This document shows, in pieces, positions 5,614 to 50,800 of a stretch of DNA of 54,812 nucleotides. The stretch comes from Gonapodya prolifera JEL478 (Eukaryota; Monoblepharomycota; Monoblepharidomycetes; Monoblepharidales; Gonapodyaceae). The notes below the pieces were generated by a model. That model saw only the letters and a program-made list of their open reading frames with translations, was not told the origin of the DNA and searched no databases. The position numbers were made by a program, and so were the translations under genes. The first letter of the stretch is position 1. Every line of letters starts with the position of its first letter. The stretch lies in NCBI GenBank assembly GCA_001574975.1, contig KQ965881.1, forward strand, positions 17,531 to 72,342, written 5' to 3'.

Positions 5614-8600
5614 ATGCGAGACGATTCCCCGACTGGAAGAGGCTTAGGAGGTGGGTTGATGTCGAGGAAAGAGCTGATCGGACAGGAAGATTTGCTGGTT
5701 AGTGATGGTGACGTGTGTGTTACTGACCCCCCCTGCTGCTCCCCACATCCCCGATCGAACCCATTTTTTCTGACTCAAATGCAACATTATTGTCTTACCT
5801 CACTGTCGCCAGGCCCTTCAGACCACGAGGCAAGGGCAGCCCCGGCTGAAAGGTCCGTCGGCGGTCGTAGCGAGTGATGTGGAAATGTCATTGGCGGTCA
5901 TCATCAGGGTCCAGAGTGGGGTTATTGACAAATTTCTTTGCAATAAGTAAGAGGAAGAATGCGGTTCGATGTTCGAAGGGCAGGCAATGGCTTGATGCGA
6001 ATGTTGGGACATAATTGCAGGTCACGACCCTTCCCAACGGCTCAGTATATCATGTAATTTACCGTTTTCTGTCTGGTGGTAATGTGGGGCGCCTGAGACA
6101 ATTCCGCCCAAGTACCACGTCACAGCAAAGGATAGAAACAACAGGGAGGTCGAGGCATCTAGGGGTCAGGATAGGTAATTTCTTGCGTTCGTCTCGAAGA
6201 GAGGGCAGTGGCGCTCCATGTTTGATTCCCCAAACTCCCGTTCTCCCTGCTCGCTCCCAAGCCCACGCTACAGAGCCATTCTCAACGCTTTTCATGCTGC
6301 AAATTCGACGATCTTTCCCCCCGATATTCTCTACGCGTACGACAGCAGACGCAACCGTACACAACAGGCTCGCTAAATATACCTGGTGGGGCTCGGGATA
6401 TTGCGGGAGAGTGTGAGGTAGACAATGTAGAGGCGACAGGGAAGTTTAGAGTGGGTGAGTGTCGTGCAATAAGGGCTTAATCGGTGTTTCAGAAGTTGAG
6501 GGTGAAATGCGGTGATCTTTCGTCAGAGCTCCAACGGTCCGATCTACCCACAGTCAATCTCTCAACAGTGGCAACATATCTCAGCCAAAGTCCACGAAGG
6601 TTCTCCATTCCGCCTCCTCACCTGCAGCTGAACGTGCTTGATCTCTTCTTGATGCAGAATCCAATCGCTCGTGGGGGGATGCACCGACTTGGCCAGTCAC
6701 TATTCACCTCGGCCAACAAGACTGACATTGGAGCAGGACTGGAAGTGTGGAGGGTCATGTACCAGAGCTATCGAGTTGCAGAAGGATCTGGCATAACGCA
6801 AGGGCAGGGCACGAAGACTGGTGGGAAGGGCGCACTTCTCCTCAACGCCGATCTAAGCTACAAGGCCGTGTATAAGGAGCAGTCAGTGCTTTCCTTCATC
6901 AAAGAGGTACTTGGCCCCCAGTTCAGTCCGGAGCGCAAGTTGAGCGAACGGGAACGGAGGGAACTTCAAGTGAGAATTAAGAAGGCAAAGATAGAGCTGG
7001 ACTACAGACAAGTCGCACAAGAACGTGGTGTAAGAAAAATTGTTGAAGCAGTGTCCCCCATGAATGCTATCGATGCGAGGTTTGAAGGCCCGGACGGGAC
7101 GATGACCAGCGCGGCAGAGTACTTTCAGAAGAAGTACAACAAGAAGCTACATTATCCACAGCTAAACTTGCTTGCGGGCGTTCAAGACACTACATTCTTT
7201 CCCCCTGAAGTGAGGACTTGGTCGTTGGCGCAATGTTAAAAGAATCCATCTCACTTTATGCTTTTGCAGCTCTGCAAAACTGTAACCGGAGTCCGATACG
7301 GGGGTTCGTATGCAGCTTGGTCCTTTACGGAAACGCGAGTGACACTGACCACGTCTACAGGTCCAATGACAGACAAGGATAGGACAGGGATGATCCGTGC
7401 CTCAACGCAGCGACCCAACGATAAAGCAAATGCTATTAAGCAGTCGGTACGTGCCATATGTGGACTTGATCTGTGGAGAATTGTTCTCATCGGTTCATTA
7501 CATAGGTGCAAGGTCTCGATGTCCCGAACAACCCACATCTCCGAGGCTTGGGGATCGAAATTGATCCGAGAATGGTCAAAGTGGAAGGGAGGATTCTCCC
7601 CCAGCCGAAATTGCTCTACGGAGAGAACAAGGTTGGTTTCAAATCATTATGGAGAGCCAATAGAGCGGAAACGCTGAGCCACCGTTAACCCCACCATGCA
7701 GATTGTTAACCCTCAAGGTGGTGCTTGGAAACTTCTTCCGACGAAGCTGCTGCTCATTTTACGCATAGGAGGTTACGGATATGTTGTGCTGATGAATGAC
7801 CGAGACATGCCGGACAACGCCGTGAAGATGTTTGATGACGCACTGAGGACCACGTTTCAAAACGTCGGGATTCAATTCGCTCCCGGTGAGGATAGCTGCG
7901 TTTTGTGCCGCTTTACAGGAACTGATATTTTTTTAATCACAGCGCAAGGAGTTGCCATTTCGAGACTTACGTTACCACGTGACGTCAAAACATATGAACT
8001 GATTGCAAGGCTGCCCAACGTAGTAGACGCACTACGCACACAATCTTCGCATTTTTTTCCCAGGGATATTGCCAATCGTATTCTTCATCATGGGTGGACG
8101 CGCAGAGGCATATGAGGGCATTAATACTGCCATGGATATGAGACTGGGCATACCAAGGTGGGACTGAATTCACGAGTCTAGTAGTTTGAGTGTTCTGAAC
8201 TCGATTTCTGTTTTATTTATTTATTTACTTTTTTTTTGGGGGGGGGGGGAAAATGCAGTCAAGTAATGTTGTCCAAAAATGTTTGACAGTCTCAGGCATC
8301 GCGCATGGAACAGTACCTCGTAAATGTAGCTCTCAAAGTAAACGTGAAGCTCGGGGGAGTCAATCAAGGTCTGAACGGTGAGATTTGCTATTGTTTGGGC
8401 GAGTGTTATACTTGTTATGTCTTTGACGACACTCTTGATCGTGCAGATCCACCTGCAGACTTTGTCCGTCAAGATAATTACATGATCATGGGAGCCGATG
8501 TGTCACACTACAGGAATGCAAGTGAAGGAAAACCCAGCATTGCGGCGGTGGTGAGTCATCTTTTGTTCTGAAGAAAGGGAAGCGCAGAAACCAACACAAT

Positions 8601-11810: not shown

Positions 11811-13718
11811 ATGAGCATCGAAGCTCTGGTCAACAAGGTGCGGGAGCGTTAAAGGGGTCTCGCCCCCCACTTGCGCAAGGTGGATCGACGGTGGAAACAT
11901 AAGCCTTCAATAATTCAACCTTGGATTAGGCGACCGACGAAAACAACACCAGCGAGGACTGGAACTCCATCTTGGATATCGCGGACAGAGTGAAGTCGAC
12001 AGACGCGTGAGTGGTTTCTACGCCGAGTTCTATTCGTTTCCCCCGATAATCTTTGAACGAAAGCGCTCGATCCGCTGTGTCCGCTTTAATCGCCCGAGTT
12101 CAGCATCGAAGCTCGAGTGTGCGTTGCTGCTCCATTTACCCTGCTCGTGTGCGGTGTTCATTGCGTCCCGCTATCCCTCTAAACGACTTTAGGTGGTTCT
12201 GAGTTCAATCACCGTTGCTGACGCTCTCATCAAGAACTGCGGCGTTGTTTTACACCGGGAAATCGCTTCCAGAGCCTTTTTGGACGCGCTCAAGACAAGA
12301 TTAGCGGACAGGGTGGGTCCAAAGTGCCGCTTTATGGAGCTCAGCGGTTCTGCCGGAGCTTGCGAACCCAGTCTCATGTTCTGCCGCTTCCATTTTGCGC
12401 TCTTGAACAACGCAGACTCTCCACGAATCGGCTCGCAACAAGATTCTCGAGTCGATACAGTCCTGGGCGAATTCTATGAAAAGTGACCCCAGCTTGGGAT
12501 ACGTTCAGGAAACATATCGAAATCTGATGGCTCAAGGTACGTCGTGAGGATCCCCACTGGATGAATGGTCGGAGCCCGTATACTTGTGGAAGTGGAATAT
12601 GGGAACATTCAGGAGTGTGTCCTACGACGATGTCTCACGCTGACGCGATGGTAACGCTGTCTCTCCAGGTCACCGTTTCCCCTCTTCCCAACCGCCCCTT
12701 CCCTCAAGCAAACCCACCGCCCCCTCCAAACCCTCTCAATCTACTGAAGACGAGGAGCTTCAGCTTGCCCTCGCCCTTTCCCTCTCCGAAGCGGAGGCCG
12801 CGAAATCTCAACCGAAAACCACCAGCTCCGCACCTCCTCCGAAGCAAGCTGCACCCTCTCAACCGACGACATTCAAAGTTCGTGCTCTGTATGACTTCAA
12901 TGGAGATGCCACCCAGGGGGAGCTTCCGCTGACGAAAGGGGACATTGTCACCGTGACGGATCAGACATACAAGGACTGGTGGAAGGGCGAAACACGATCC
13001 CGGGCGGGTTTCTTCCCTGCGAACTACGTTGAGCTTCTTCCCAAAGAGGCGACGGCAGATCCCGAGGCGGAGCGCAGTGTATTGGAGGGTGTGCGCGATG
13101 TGGACCGGTTCCTCATTATGCTCGCAAAGGTTGACCCAACGAGGGAGAACCTGAGCGAGAATGAACAACTGTTGGAGCTTCACCATTCGATTATCACACT
13201 GAGACCCAAGTTGGTCAGGCTCATTGAATATTACTCGAAGAAGAAAGGTACGTCGGACAGAGCCTCGTGATTCTCTAGGTTTCTTCTTACCAGTTCTTCC
13301 TTTCGTTACTTTGTCGACGTGCATCGCTTGTGAACTCGTCCCAGAGCAACTCCTCGATCTCAACGACAAGTTCACGAAAGCGCAAACATCTTACACGCGT
13401 CTTGTCGATCAAGCAGTTTCTGCTCAAAGACAAGCCGCTCTTTCTGAGCCTTCGTCATTGGTTGGCCCTGGACCAGGCGGCGCTTCGCGAGATCCGAATG
13501 CCCCAACAGGGTCCCAACAAGGAGGCTATTATCCTCCGAGTGGTGGTCAGGCGTCGTACTACCCCGGTGCCGGTGCCCCCCAGCAATATTCCCAAGGGTA
13601 TGGAGGATGGGAGCAGCACGGAGGAGGCGCGCAATCGCCGGCGGCGCAGTATGGCGGCTACCCGGAAACGCAACCTGGGACCAATGGGTATCCACCAGCT
13701 TACGGCCAAGGGTATTGA
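11811..13718 (+). CDS. HSE1: ESCRT-0 subunit Hse1 (STAM homologue)
   Basis: Endosomal sorting protein that pairs with Vps27 to bind ubiquitinated membrane cargo. Exon 1 (11811-11837) gives MSIEALVNK and joins exon 2 (11930-12006) to read KATDENNTSEDWNSILDIAD, the start of the VHS domain. VHS continues through AVSALIARVQHR and VADALIKNCGVVLHREIASR to SWANSMKSDPSLGYVQETY. Next come a ubiquitin-interacting motif (EDEELQLALALSLSEAEA, about 12750), an SH3 domain (FKVRALYDFNGD to GFFPANYVELLP, 12870-13045), a GAT-like helical region (13060-13420) and a Gly/Tyr/Gln-rich tail ending AYGQGY. Domain order VHS-UIM-SH3-GAT is diagnostic. Introns are short, and every junction checked keeps frame. The start is set by the ATG that splices in phase into the conserved VHS N terminus. 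Confidence 0.93.
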
Positions 13719-16465: not shown

Positions 16466-19400
16466 ATGCTTCTCTGGCGAAAGCTGGAGATTCTCGTCCT
16501 CTCCGTGATAATTCACCATCTTGTGATTTTCGCCTCCGCCTACCCGGGGGGAAGCCCATGCTCCGCAGACGAAGACAGCATCACAACCTCTTTTCATGGC
16601 GCATCACTGTACGCTGGTGATGGGGGCTATGGGCTGGTCGTGAAGCAGATTTCAACCCCCGGCGCAACTCCCCAAAAGTACACTGTAACCATATATGGAC
16701 CACAAGCGATTGAAGGCCTTTTGGTGTACTCGAGCTTATCTGATGGAACTCGCGTCGGAAGCTTCGTAACGACGACTTTTCTCCAGTCGTTGAACTGTGG
16801 AGGAACGGGGACGAACACGTTGACGCACAAGGACAAATCCTCGAAGTCGATGAATATTACGCTTCAGTGGAACGCAGATACTCCCGTGAAACAAAGTGAG
16901 GAATTAAATGTGCAGCTCAATGTCACTTTTTCACTCTTGACGCGTGTTGTAGGTTCCCCTGTGGAGATACATGCGATTGGTGAGTGGACGCAATTTACTC
17001 CTCGAAAATGATCTGCAGCTCAAACTAACGATCGTTTTAGTGGTGCTATCTCTCAATGAATGGTATATCCTCCAAAGTGTCGCCTTCGCTGGATCGTAAG
17101 TGCAGTCCCGCTTCGATGCCTGTGTGACGTCGACCACACATAATTTTTTTGCCCTGACCGCTTGAATATCTCTAGTGTTCCAACTTCGGGTCTGTCCTCC
17201 TCTTCTACAACGAGAACAACGACGAAAAGTACCACTGTACCACAGTTAATCCAGACAACTACATCATCTTTACCCGCAATACCAACTAACGTCCTAGCAT
17301 CAAAGTCCACCCGATCTTCGGGCGCCATTGCACGCACACGAACAACAACTCGAACGACACAAACAAGGACTACCAGAACACGTACGACAAAGACTCGCAC
17401 TACGACGTCGAGGACGCAAACAACCACTCTCTTTACTACCACACAGTGAGTGCATCCGTGCGTGCGGGTCGAGGATGATGTGATCCCAAATGTCACCCCA
17501 AATCGATCACGAAGGGCACGGAACACAATGCTTTTGTATGGTTCTGACGTTGTGTGCTTCAAAGCTCACACAATAAGCGCAGGCGACACGTGCTACAATC
17601 TCGGAATCGCCAACAATTCAACCGTACAGGATCTTATCAATCTCAACTCCAACATGAACTGCGATAATTTGCCAATCGGAGGTGTAAGTAAACGTTTTGT
17701 GTGGTCATATTCTCTCTTTGGTCTCACGCTTCCCAATATCGCCATGCAGCGACTTTGTCTTTACGGTACCACCCTTCCGTGCTCAAAGCCCTATGTCGTA
17801 CAGGGTGGCGACTACTGCGAACTCATTGCGGACGGGGCGGGCGTAACGTTTGACAACTTGTTGCTGTTCAACCCGGGGTTGGATTGTGATAATTTCTTCG
17901 TTGGCGATGTGAGACCAAACGAACACTTTTTTCGCTTACGGTGAATGAACACACACGCTTGCAGGTTCTTTGCTTGGGCTATAGTACAAACGGTGGTGGC
18001 GTAACGCCGCCAGTTAATCAGCCGAGTTCTTCATGCACATCGTTTTACGAGGTCGGGGATGGCGACACATGCTATCTTATCGCTCAAAAAAATGGCATTA
18101 CTCCCGAGCAACTAGTTGCACTCAACAGTCAATTGAACTGCACAGATTTCTACGTTGGAGATGTGAGCTTTTGCAAGCACTTCCATGGATAACAAAATGT
18201 CAAGAGCTGACCCCTGGTTTAGATTCTCTGTGTCTCTAATACCAACAGGTCTCCAACCGTCTCACCCGTCATCCCCGTACCGCTATGGACTACAACAGCT
18301 ACTCATACTGCCACTCCAACGACCACTAAAACAAGAACGAGCACTGCCATGCCAACGAAGACGAAAACAAGAACGAGCACATTAACAACGTCAAGAACGA
18401 GTACAGTAACAACATCAAGAACGATTACAGTGACGACATCCTCCACAACCCCGCTTGTCACCCCATCTTCTGGAACATGCGGAAAATACTACACGGTCGT
18501 GGACGGAGATTCGTGCCCGTTAATTGCAATCAAAAACTCGATCACTCTGTTCCAACTGCAGCTGCAGAATCCTACGTTGGACTGCAATGAGTTTTATGTC
18601 GATGACGTGAGTTTCCGTTCTTCGTGGTAAAAAAGGAGCACCACAGGCCTGACACCTTTTTTCCCGTGTTCAGCAATTGTGTGTTGCAGTTGCACCTGCT
18701 TTGGTGACAACCACAGCCCCTCAAGCAACGACAATTCGAACAAGCACCAAAGCTCTGGTGACGACGACCTCCACATCGAGTCCAACCATATCGCCATCCA
18801 CTTGCTCGAAATTTTACACAGTTATCGACGGCGATTCGTGTCCCTCTATTGCTGCCAAGAATGGTATCAGAGTGGCAGATTTAACACAATTAAACCCCGA
18901 CCTCAACTGCTCTGAGTTTTACGTGGATGATGTGAGGTTTCAGAGTTATTTTCAAGGAATTCACGATGTCAAGAGCGCGCGATTGTACTAGTTGCTATGC
19001 GTCGCCAGTTTCTCTCTTGTTCCATCGGTCTGCGCTGTGGAGTATGTCGTCCAAGACGGAGACTACTGTGACCTAATTGCATCGAAGAGTGGCATATCGT
19101 ACAGCGAGTTGATTCAATTGAACCCGCAGTTGGATTGCGACGCTTTTTATGTTGGCGATGTAGGTTCCACCTCTCTTCTTCTAGACTATCGTCTTTCCAA
19201 CAACAATCTACGTAGGTCCTTTGCGTTGAAGCCGGCACCGCCACCACCACGCGGAGCACCACGAGGGCAGGTACATCAACGACAAGTTTCGTGCGAACAA
19301 CGACCACCACCGCCACCACCATATCTTTGGGCTGCTCACAACGTAGAACCATCGCTTCTGGTGATTTGTGTTACAAAATCGCAGAAGAGTATCAGATTTC

Positions 19401-20749
19401 CTTGGCTACTTTGCTCTCCTTGAATCCGGGACTGAACTGTGCCGCCTTGCAGATTGGGCAGGTGAGGAGAAAGTCTTCGGCTTCTCTGCTTATTTGCTTG
19501 CAATCAATTGTCACATGCGCAGCAATTGTGCGTTCGAAATGGCGCTGGAGATATTACACGGACTGCAACAACAATCACGCTATCTCCACAGGCAACCAAT
19601 TCCGGATGCTCGAGAACGAAAACGGTTGCAGCTGGTGACCTATGCTACACTATTGCCTTGCAGTTCGGTCTGTCTCTACAACAGCTTGCTGCCATGAATC
19701 CCAGTCTGTCTTGCAGCAATTTACAGATAGGACAGGTAATATTGATTCGGGAATCGATTTCGGTACATTTTTCAATCTCACTTCTGGAACTAGGTCATTT
19801 GCGTGGTCGGCGGATGTCAAAATAGCTACAGCGTCGTCGCAGGAGACTATTGTTATTCTATTGCGCAGAAGCAAGGGATATCAGTCGCACAGCTCCAAAA
19901 CGCCAACCCAGGGCTTAATTGCGCGAGCTTACAGATTGGAGCGGTACTGATTACCATCTTTGAGTGCAAGTGTGACCACAATTCACCCCCTCGTTTGATT
20001 CTTGTAGGCACTCTGCTTGCCTGAAACCGCTTCTGCTGCTGCTGCTGCTGGTGGTACCATCTTCAAGGATATACCAGTTCCTGTGATTTCAAACGTCTCG
20101 AATTGCACAATACCTTACGCCATCAAAACCGCCGACGACTGTGATGGATTGTTGACAAAATATGGTAACATGACAATAGACCAGTTCCTTTCCTACAATC
20201 CTGATCTGAATTGTTCGAACGTGCAAGCATCTGAGGTTGGTGCTTCCTAACTAAATGAATGTTTGTACGTGTTGGTGACAACTTGCTTTTCTCAGGTTCT
20301 TTGCGCTCCGTGGGACGTTCGATCGTGTACAAAGACTGACCTTGTCCAGGACGGCGACTTTTGTGACTTGATATCCACCCGAAATCATATTTCAAAGGAT
20401 AATCTATTGGAGCTGAATCCGCTTTTTAATTGCTCCTCTTTCTATGAAGGCGATGTAAGTAGTCTGTGATGTCACTTGAAGCACCGTCTCCCTTAAACAA
20501 ACCATGACATGTCTGCAGGTTGTGTGCGTCTCATCTGCATCCCACATAACCGCGTCGAGCGGAATAACATCTGCAACCACGACCCCACCAAAGCCAGCAA
20601 CGACAGTTACGACTCTTGTACAAACACCCGTTAGCCTCACAACTACCAGTGCTCGATCTTACAATCGCCATCGACATCATCGCCGAGCGAAGACCTCTAG
20701 TGAACGATCAGCTATCGTCGCGTTGCCTTCTCGCGTTCGCCAAAGATAG
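16466..20749 (+). CDS. Secreted Reeler-domain protein with eleven LysM units
   Basis: Starts at the ATG that opens a signal peptide (MLLWRKLEILVLSVIIHHL, cleavage probably after FASA). A Reeler-like domain follows: YPGGSPC, TPQKYTVTIYG, EGLLVYSS, VGSF, LNCGG, LTHKDKSSKSMNITLQWNAD and, after introns, VEIHAIVVLSLNEWYIL. A Thr/Arg/Ser-rich linker (about 17176-17445) leads to eleven LysM-type units, each with a pattern like YxVxxGDxCxxIA...L..LNPxLxC and closing Asp or Gln. Unit exons: to 17683, 17750-17908, 17965-18162, 18223-18606, 18674-18931, 18992-19159, 19216-19461, 19523-19735, 19794-19943, 20008-20235, 20296-20454. A final Thr-rich exon begins at 20519. LysM modules bind chitin-type glycans, so a cell-wall or extracellular chitin-binding role is inferred. 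No GPI signal is evident. The exon before unit 1 (about 17450-17565) has an unsure boundary. Confidence 0.85.
17176..17445 (+). repeat. Thr/Arg-rich low-complexity linker
   Basis: In-frame degenerate repeats of Thr with Arg, Ser and Lys (for example TRTTTRTTQTRTTRTRTTKT) separate the Reeler domain from the first LysM unit. A similar Thr-rich block recurs at about 18280-18450 inside the exon of unit 4 and, more weakly, before units 5, 7 and 8. Such stretches are typical O-glycosylated stalks in fungal wall proteins. Confidence 0.7.
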
Positions 20750-35638: not shown

Positions 35639-35860
35639 GGTGCGGTGCAGGTGCGGGGAGTGCGGGAGACACGAAAGTGGCAGTGCGTGGATGGAGTACG
35701 CACAAAATGAAATGGCACAGGGTGTGTGCACGGATCGCTTTTTGCTTTCCAGTCGTGGTTGGAAATTCTGCAATTCCTTTTCTTCTTTCCCACTCAACAA
35801 CCCAATCCACCCGTCGTCTTCCCTCCCACGGCACCGTCCTCCCTCCCATCGCACGCCACA

Positions 35861-36313
35861 ATGTCCAAATCCGCAAAGGCCGTCCAATCCAAAACAATCG
35901 CTTTCAAACTCCTCGTGCCTGCAGCAAAGGCCGCGCCCACACCCCCCGTGGGTCCCGCTCTCGGGCAGCGCGGAGTCAAATCAATCGACTTCTGCAAGCA
36001 ATTCAACGACGCCACGAAGCACATCGTGCCCGGAACGCCCATCCCAACCCGAATCACCGTCAAGCCCGACAGGTCCTTCTCGTTCATCACAAAGGCACCG
36101 CAGACGGCCTGGCTCCTCATGCGCGCGGCCGGGATCGAAAAAGGCTCGGCAACGTCTGGCAAGGACATGCAGGCCTCAGTGTCTGTCAAGCACATCTACG
36201 AGATTGCAAAAATAAAGTCAAACGATCCCGGGTTCAAGGGCCTCGAGCTCGAAAAGGTGGCAAAGTGCATCGCAGCCCAGACGAGGAGTTTGGGCATAAA
36301 GGTCGTCCTGTAG
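35861..36313 (+). CDS. Mitochondrial large-subunit ribosomal protein uL11m
   Basis: Bacterial-type L11, which in eukaryotes belongs to the mitochondrial ribosome, where it binds the GTPase centre of the large rRNA. The intron-free frame of 150 codons starts MSKSAKAVQSKTIAFKLLVP and contains APPVGPALGQ-type PTPPVGPALGQRGVKSIDFC, ITVKPDRSFSFITKAPQTAW and the C-terminal KCIAAQTRSLGIKVVL, all hallmarks of L11. The frame is open further upstream to 35726, but that part includes a hydrophobic and Pro-rich run and lacks a better start; the chosen ATG gives the standard L11 N terminus with a few extra residues. Yeast counterpart: MRPL19. It is one of the few genes in this window without introns. Confidence 0.92.
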   Translation: MSKSAKAVQSKTIAFKLLVPAAKAAPTPPVGPALGQRGVKSIDFCKQFNDATKHIVPGTPIPTRITVKPDRSFSFITKAPQTAWLLMRAAGIEKGSATSGKDMQASVSVKHIYEIAKIKSNDPGFKGLELEKVAKCIAAQTRSLGIKVVL

Positions 36314-47871: not shown

Positions 47872-50800
47872 ATGCAATCGGAAGTTGTGTTCTCCCCTGG
47901 CAAGGCTTCGAACGCCGGATCGCATTTACATTCTCACAGAGATGTCGGAGAGTCCAAAGAGACTAACATACAGGTCGTTGTGAGGCTCAGGTGAGATCGC
48001 GCTCTCATTTGCAACATCATTCCCCATCATTTTTAATGGGAACGCGGTAACATGCGGAATCAAAATGTTTTGTATGGTCGCCAGACCTCGTTCATCGAAA
48101 GAAATACGGGAGAATTCTCCAGTACTCATTTCTGCTGGTGGATCCGCGACAGGCTCATCCGGCTGCCGGGAGGTCAATGTCCGCATGTTTTCGAGCGAAG
48201 CAACTCATAAGACATATACGTTTGACCGAGTTTTTGGTCCCGAATGTGAGCTCTACGAAACAGTTCAGAAAACACGATCGGGGAACCATGGACTATTGGA
48301 GGCGATCAATAAGCATGGGAACCGGGACTGCTTTTAGTGCGCTGGCGTTTCCTAAAATTGTCTGTCACGAATTCTTTCACAGCCGACCAGGAAACTATCT
48401 ACAACGATGTGGTTCAGCCTATTCTCGAAGAGGTTTTGATGGGCTATAACTGTACCATATTCGCGTACGGTTAGTACTTTCGATACCTTTGTCCCATGGG
48501 AACGTATTTACGGTTTTGATTGCATCGAATTTGTTCCAGGCCAAACTGGTACTGGCAAAACGTAAGTTATTTGATCTCATACCAAGAGTACTAAGACCGT
48601 CAACTCCTCCTTTACCAGCCACACAATGGAAGGCTCGCTTGATGCTCTCCCAAATGCGAATGCTGGAATTATTCCCCGTGCTCTGCATCGCCTCTTCGAG
48701 ACTCTTGAAGCACAGTCGTCAGACTTTTCTGTTCGTGTTTCCATGCTTGAACTGTACAATGAGGAACTGCGTGACCTTCTCGCCCCTGATTCTGGGAACC
48801 CTCTCGGAGCATCTGTGAATTCGGTTGCATCAGCCGTAGCTTTCGACAGTCAAAAACTCCGGCTCTTCGAGGAACAACGCGGTCGTGGCATCATCATACA
48901 AGGTCTGGAAGAGGTACTTGCGAAAAATGTCTGGGATGTGCTCGCGTCGTTACGAAAGGGAGCGGAGAAGCGACAAACGGCCGGAACACAACTCAACGAG
49001 AAGAGTAGTCGCAGTCATTGCGTTTTCTCCGTTACTGTTCACATCAAAGAAGCGACTCCGGAGGGAGAAGACCTTCTTAAGGTGAGTTTTCACCTTGAAA
49101 GTGCTTACCTTTCGTCTTTGACGACCGTCTTTGCAGGTTGGCAAATTGAATCTTGTCGACTTGGCTGGTTCCGAAAACATTGGGCGATCCGGCGCAGAAA
49201 ACAAACGCGCACGAGAGGCCGGCATGATCAACCAGAGTTTGCTCACCCTGGGAAGAGTTATAAATGCTTTGGTGGACAAAAGTCCCCATGTGCCTTATCG
49301 AGAGTCGAAACTCACTCGACTTCTCCAAGATTCACTGGGTGGTGAGCTACCCTGTCCCACGATGATGCGCATTGACAAGCGAACAACAATTGATCAAATT
49401 TCAGGTCGCACGAAAACTTGCATTATCGCCACAATCTCTCCCGCGAAGGTCAACATGGAGGAATCTCTTTCAACCCTCGACTATGCCCATCGCGCCAAGA
49501 ACATTCGCAACAAGCCTGAGATAAATCAAAAAATGAGCAAAAAGGCTCTCATCAAGGAGTATGTTCAAGAGATCGAGCGCTTGAGAGCTGACCTTCAAGT
49601 ATGATTTATCAATTTGTATAATCGATTTTTGTTCTCATCCCATTTTTCTTCGTTCCAGGCGAATCGCGAGAAAAATGGAGTGTTTATGTCCCTTGAGTCA
49701 TATAATCAGCTCATGGAGTCGCATCAAAGTGGCCGCGACAGGGTAGGGGAATTGGAAAAAGAGCAACAAGCGAGAGAAGAACAATTGCGTCGACGCGATG
49801 AAGAGACCGCCCGCCTTCGAGACGAGCTCGTGTCACAGAAGGAAACCGTGAAACGGCTTCAGCTTCAACTGGAAGATTCACGAGAAAAAGCTCGAATGCT
49901 ACAGGAGGACTTAGATAAGACCACAGTCCAATTGAGGGAACAAGAAGTGCTTACAGCTGCGCATAAACAAACGGCAGAATCTTTGGAAGTTGTCTCAAAG
50001 AGTTTCAAAGTTTTGATTGAAAACGGAGTGGAAGAGCTCGATGGCGTTCATTCGAAGATGGGTGGGTAATATGAGATCACGTTGGCAACATCGTTTTACA
50101 CAACGTCTCTTCTAGCTCGTCGTGAATCCCTCGAAAGGGCGAACAATCTTGCAGTCGCCGAGTTCAAAGGGTCATTGGCTAAAAAACTTGCCGAGCTTGA
50201 AGTCAAGAGCACCAATTTCATGCACAAACAGGAAAGTACCATTGAAGATATTTATGGGGCTACCACTGGATGGCTGGAAGAGAGTCGCAGGGTGGGTGAA
50301 CAACTTAACGGTTGTTCAAGTAGATCTCACTCACTATCCCGCGAATGAATGCCAGTCCGCTGCAAAGTCTTCAACCCTTCTCTCAACTTCAATTGCCACC
50401 CTCGAAGAGATTCTTGCAGATCTGTCTGATAACACTGCTCATCTTTTGACCAACCCGGAGACTGGACTCCAGGCAGTCCTCCATCGTGCGAAGGCCGCAG
50501 CAAAATCTTCGATTATTGCGCTGCGATCTTTCCAGAAAGATTCCGAGACTTCGTGGAATGATATTTCTGAGTCCTTCTCCAGAAGTACATCCGAATGGCG
50601 AAGTAACGTTCACACCGCGGTAGCTGATATGAGAAAGGAATGTGAAAAGTTGGCAGAGGATATAAATTCCGCCTGTGACAAATGGGGGCATGAGGTGGCA
50701 GTGGTGGCTCGGAGAATCGGGACAACTCTTGCTGATGAAAACACTCGGCTCCGTGAAGAATCTGACAATCTGAAGAAGCGCCTCCGTGAAATCAACGTGA

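Follow-up and report, generated by a model that had tools for sequence, protein, structure and literature searches.

Fungal proteins are described in the available part of PMC5600412 as carrying 1–7 LysM modules, Ecp6 having three of them, and the accessible section of PMC5662087 distinguishes multi-cysteine, fungal-specific LysMs (Tal6-like) from LysMs that have at most one cysteine, those of Ecp6 among them. LysM effectors are defined, in the portion of PMC7176902 at hand, as secreted proteins with a variable LysM number that lack a catalytic domain. Arthropod Reeler proteins, e.g. Noduler and PcReeler, are reported in excerpts of PMC12113285, PMC5126049, and PMC13373891 to bind microbial wall components, and Noduler (168 aa) and LvReeler1–3 are presented in the first of these excerpts (PMC12113285) as having a single Reeler domain each. 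Both Reeler and LysM are mentioned in the excerpts of PMC13373891 and PMC5126049, as separate subjects. A full-text literature search found no paper describing a Reeler domain joined to LysM, in agreement with the statement in a preliminary description of the present gene that no described protein of this kind was known. Similarly, a literature search on the Reeler domain and fungi gave no fungal Reeler protein as a topic among the titles and abstract openings listed. The combination of the two domains may exist elsewhere. To our knowledge, little has been published on the surface proteins of zoosporic fungi.

The window, i.e. the whole stretch of DNA that was analyzed (54,812 nucleotides of the Gonapodya prolifera JEL478 genome), contains on its forward strand, at 16466–20749, a gene with 15 exons and 14 GT-AG introns, each 56–80 nt long. 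The spliced product is a single frame of 1,133 amino acids with no internal stops. The parts of the gene are as follows:

16466..16979, + strand: exon 1, signal peptide and most of the Reeler-like head (to aa 171), ending in a phase-1 intron
17041..17095, + strand: exon 2, last part of the Reeler-like head, which aligns to the C-terminal exon of Reeler-type genes of this genome
17176..17445, + strand: exon 3, Thr/Ser/Arg-rich stalk, aa 190–280
17446..17514, + strand: intron 3, 69 nt, donor GTGAGT, acceptor AAG, in-frame TGA at 17447–17449
17515..17683, + strand: exon 4, LysM unit 1 (aa 294–339) as far as the unit intron
17750..17908, + strand: exon 5, end of unit 1 and LysM unit 2 (from aa 347)
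17965..18162, + strand: exon 6, LysM unit 3 (from aa 413)
18223..18606, + strand: exon 7, Thr/Lys/Arg-rich linker of 82 aa and LysM unit 4 (from aa 541)
18674..18931, + strand: exon 8, linker and LysM unit 5 (from aa 627)
18992..19159, + strand: exon 9, LysM unit 6 (from aa 683)
19216..19461, + strand: exon 10, Thr-rich linker and LysM unit 7 (from aa 765)
19523..19735, + strand: exon 11, LysM unit 8 (from aa 836)
19794..19943, + strand: exon 12, LysM unit 9 (from aa 886)
20008..20235, + strand: exon 13, LysM unit 10 (from aa 961), with AD instead of GD
20296..20454, + strand: exon 14, LysM unit 11 (from aa 1015)
20519..20749, + strand: exon 15, remainder of unit 11, a Thr-rich segment, and the basic tail, rich in His and Arg

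From its N to its C terminus, the protein thus consists of a hydrophobic signal peptide (about aa 1–25, judged by eye), a head of about 165 aa (to aa 190), a Thr/Ser/Arg-rich stalk (51% S+T over aa 191–290), eleven four-cysteine LysM units starting at aa 294, 347, 413, 541, 627, 683, 765, 836, 886, 961, and 1015, and a basic tail. No hydrophobic anchor was seen by eye at the C-terminal end, and no catalytic Pfam family scored above the cut-off in the 1,133-aa protein. The preliminary description is right about the position and strand of the gene and about its signal peptide (by eye), its stalks, and its eleven LysM units. The surroundings of the gene in the window include ordinary neighbors, namely a Ribosomal protein L11 family gene (35711–36310, + strand) and a kinesin motor piece (48575–49342, + strand), so that the locus looks like a normal chromosome. 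Also on the + strand are an Argonaute-like piece (6481–7236), with PAZ and ArgoL1 above the Pfam cut-off, and a frame (12644–13267) in which SH3 is above and GAT and UIM are below the cut-off, a combination found in Hse1/STAM-type sorting proteins.

A search with the Pfam LysM model (PF01476), suggested as a check in the preliminary description, matched 11 stretches (E 1.1e-106; 348.9 bits versus a cut-off of 20.9). All 44 of 44 cysteines are kept, four in each unit, in a pattern equal to that of 5bum. The GD of the first loop is present in 10 of the 11 units, the N of the second loop in 11 of 11, and NP in 9 of 11. On this evidence, the LysM array is beyond doubt. A phase-0 intron lies inside all 11 units at an identical spot, before the last xLC, and the length of every exon from 5 to 15 is divisible by three; LysM units could therefore be duplicated or skipped with the frame kept. 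Exons 5–14 are of phase 0-0, each with one LysM unit body (window 17750–20749). Pairwise identity among the units is 26–64%, which makes the duplications look old, and unit 10 is the most divergent by best match (26–36% identity to the other units). When a profile of the units was compared with solved structures, the closest chains were 5bum (E 4.6e-21) and 4pxv (E 1e-16), both named Chitinase A, and a chain of Ecp6 (4b8v) was the fourth match (E 3.1e-13), ranking below a designed repeat protein. Since the nearest solved relatives are Chitinase A LysM chains, binding of chitin by the array is likely.

The four-cysteine units are of the fungal-specific, Tal6-like kind, as it is delineated in the available text of PMC5662087. 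Like the units found here, those of Tal6 (Trichoderma atroviride, seven LysMs) and of the proteins P0004 and P0005 (basidiomycete) are cysteine-rich, P0004 and P0005 having 4 Pfam LysM stretches each; the present protein differs from these in its eleven units and its Reeler-like head, and it has a common intron site in every unit. Ecp6, although a LysM relative of these units by the structural match mentioned above, differs in its LysM number (PMC5600412, excerpt), in being of the one-or-no-cysteine type (PMC5662087, excerpt), and in having no Reeler domain. Six proteins matched the full-length query; these bear LysMs, and none had a Reeler domain listed. Two of them resemble the present protein in their many tandem LysMs: P0001, with 13 Pfam LysM stretches, aligned over 47% of the query, and P0002, with 10, over 63%. 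They are probably bacterial and differ from it in the lack of a listed Reeler domain and, in the case of P0001, in the presence of peptidoglycan-binding domains.

Elsewhere in the genome, at least five LysM matches were found (one on contig C1, two on C9, and two on C30), which read GDTY or GDTF and not GDxC, and whose frames stop before the place of the third cysteine. We regard these matches, at loci L011, L012, and L013, as a separate kind of LysM protein. Pro-rich frames were observed at L011 (C30) and L013 (C1), and a short hydrophobic segment near L012 (C9). The gene under study is the only GDxC-type LysM array found, a count that is a lower bound, as the genome-wide search recovered 8 of the 11 units of this very gene and may for this reason miss other arrays.

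Intron 3 falls exactly between the stalk and the LysM array, and its splicing, which is predicted from the DNA sequence, is the weak link of the gene model. Its acceptor, AAG, is the sole non-YAG one among the 14, the other 13 introns ending in TAG or CAG, and a TGA stands in frame directly after the donor, so that a retained intron would yield a Reeler-stalk protein of 280 aa. Both features speak for two genes or isoforms, i.e. a secreted 280-aa Reeler-stalk protein ending at this TGA and a separate LysM protein downstream. The same can be said of the finding that no deposited protein of 623–1983 aa (best 7,990 candidates by shared words) matched the 1,133-aa protein over its full length, so the gene is probably absent from the deposited gene models or divided in them. 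However, the donor of intron 3 is a perfect GTGAGT, and the LysM frame picks up in phase after an intron of normal size (69 nt). Moreover, a single ATG (17528) is present between the TGA and unit 1, and no signal-like stretch was seen by eye after it, yet the units are cysteine-rich. Finally, the stalk before the intron resembles the linker that separates units 3 and 4 in its Thr/Arg-rich make-up. Taken together, the frame, the length of the intron, the lack of a signal peptide in front of the LysM units, and this similarity of the stalks lead us to favor one protein: the join of stalk and LysM array is likely to be real, and a division into two genes or isoforms is rather improbable. Three other ideas about this intron were set aside. 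A supposed lack of a branch site was dropped, as intron 3 scores at least as well as 8 of the 13 others, and our estimate for one protein is the same without it. Among alternative acceptors inspected by eye, only the AAG at 17514, followed by GG, leaves the frame intact and unit 1 with its first cysteine. Read-through of the TGA was judged unlikely.

Besides the studied gene, the genome has 17 further Reeler-type loci. One gene (A) came from a six-frame Pfam search, and the use of its neighbor (B) as the query gave 21 rows corresponding to 17 loci, A and B included; an iterated profile recovered all 17. They lie on contigs C1, C24 (four loci), C29, C30, C31, C49, C56, C57, C58, and C78 and also on C84, C93, C118, and C119, and are labeled L010 and L024–L038. 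The Pfam Reeler cut-off was passed by six of the eight kin tested, and two were below it. The kin share the signature C / HG / YTVTL / VG.F / C / H..K / W and have a signal-like N terminus where this was read. For genes A (by eye) and B (by model), both on C24, the C terminus seems to be a membrane helix. Gene B shows 100% identity, over 85% of its length, to a deposited protein of Gonapodya prolifera JEL478. The loci L024 and L025, nearly identical to each other, are both located at contig ends and may be duplicates produced by the assembly. A LysM search that recovered 8 of the 11 known units indicated no LysM match within 100 kb of any of the 17 loci. These loci are therefore like the studied gene in their signature motifs and in an intron site (15 of 17), and unlike it in having no LysM match within that distance.

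A domain search for Reeler at residues 25–190 had been set beforehand as the refuting test, and the Pfam model PF02014 matched the head neither at E ≤ 1 nor at E ≤ 10. By that model, the name Reeler given to the head in the preliminary description does not hold. A profile made from 13 of the Reeler-type kin (drawn from the 17 loci, with the window sequence left out), however, scored 27.6 bits against the head, while shuffled sequences reached at most 14.2 bits (20,000 run, 18,600 reported). With hhalign, the same profile gave the head a probability of 95.8; the controls were far lower, with 0.2 when the head was reversed, no more than 5.0 in 200 shuffles, and no more than 2.5 in 116 decoys, which were other frames of the window trimmed to 170 aa. 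A profile comparison with 10 kin gave 94.4. On the whole 1,133-aa protein, the 13-kin profile returned no row under default filters and 17.1 bits with the filters off. An early kin profile of 74 columns scored 15.1 bits on the cut-out head (shuffles ≤12.4) and did not match the whole protein. Furthermore, the first intron of the head agrees in aligned codon and in phase with an intron of 15 of the 17 kin, the exons of the other two reading through without an intron. The motifs of the head follow each other in the order of the kin (YPGGSPC / HG / YTVTI / GTRVGSF / C / H..K / QW), though they are kept only in part, and an insert of about 19 aa missing from the kin is present.

Direct searches with the head were negative. 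It had no phmmer match in the PDB, matched only itself (two exons) in its own genome, and had no homologue at E ≤ 10 among 1,063 candidate proteins. One kin sequence likewise had no match in the PDB, a ten-kin profile matched no solved chain there, and a three-sequence profile gave four matches (best E 0.68), which we read as chance. AlphaFold, given exon 1 minus its signal peptide together with two relatives, produced a model of low confidence (pLDDT 46), for which Foldseek found nothing at E ≤ 0.001, and none of the 50 matches listed was a Reeler chain. One could conclude that the head is some other beta domain and that its likeness to the Reeler-type genes arose by chance or convergence, a reading consistent with the Pfam negative, with the lack of a Reeler chain among the matches of the model, and with the lack of a solved chain matched by the kin profile. 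The fold result for the head says little, since the kin control P0007 (pLDDT 50) gave no Reeler chain among the matches listed either, these being mostly Ig/FN3-like sandwiches with CBM56 first. Chance or convergence is opposed by the hhalign and HMM scores, far above their controls, by the common intron position, and by the Reeler signature motifs in their kin order, and we hold it to be very improbable. The head is, in our reading, a divergent Reeler-like domain with remote homology to the Reeler-type family of this genome. The earlier characterization of the gene as encoding a secreted protein with a Reeler domain and eleven LysMs in an early-diverging fungus thus stands overall, with "Reeler" applying only in the sense of a divergent relative missed by Pfam's model. 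Arthropod Reelers (Noduler, LvReeler1–3, and PcReeler) are, as far as the excerpts cited above describe them, also secreted Reeler-domain proteins, from which the present head differs in being below the Pfam threshold and joined to LysMs.

These findings led us to propose, with somewhat more confidence than doubt, that the gene encodes a secreted, non-enzymatic, multivalent chitin-binding surface protein with an outward Reeler-like head, which would act as a cross-linker or adhesin. Its secretion, glycosylation, chitin binding, and location, as well as the partner of the head, are predictions from sequence. Eleven LysM units on Thr-rich stalks, themselves probably O-glycosylated, are predicted to hold chitin at many points and hence with high avidity. 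The chitin bound would most likely be that of the fungus's own wall, and the target could instead be the substrate or foreign chitin; chitin-synthase families have strong matches in the genome (best E 2.6e-176). The head, displayed outward by the stalk of about 100 aa, could bind a second partner, such as a matrix polysaccharide, the substratum, bacteria, or another copy of the protein, and such two-ended binding would make the protein a cross-linker or adhesin. This is our best guess in view of the many LysM units and, by analogy, of the reported binding of microbial wall components by arthropod Reeler proteins. Of the roles contemplated in the preliminary description, a wall scaffold or adhesin is the best fit.

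The protein might alternatively be an effector-like shield that coats fungal chitin against chitinases or against recognition by a living host or competitor. It does fit the definition of LysM effectors in the available portion of PMC7176902, with its signal peptide (by eye), its LysMs, and no catalytic Pfam family. However, its eleven LysMs exceed the range given for fungal proteins in the excerpt of PMC5600412, and a second gene with GDxC-type LysMs was not found by the search that recovered 8 of the 11 known units. We therefore consider a shield of this kind unlikely. The water-living chytrid Gonapodya prolifera is a saprotroph. As it has no known host, a host-directed effector is less likely, and the effector-like role entertained earlier, in its sense of a host-immunity effector, found no positive support.

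Returning to the surface protein proposed above, it is conceivable, though we would not expect it, that the gene encodes the fungal equivalent of a pattern-recognition or matrix protein of animals, in which a Reeler domain of an expanded family was fused to a chitin-binding array in an early-diverging fungus. If this were true, the chitin wall would bear an outward Reeler recognition domain catching microbes, substrate, or neighboring cells, and Reeler-based surface recognition would be common to animals and flagellated fungi. The gene appears to link a divergent relative of an animal matrix and immunity domain with a GDxC-type LysM array, the only one found in the genome (a lower bound), and 17 other Reeler-type loci accompany it there. 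This suggests that surface proteins based on Reeler belong to early fungal biology, and the gene described here is a concrete candidate for adhesion or wall cross-linking.
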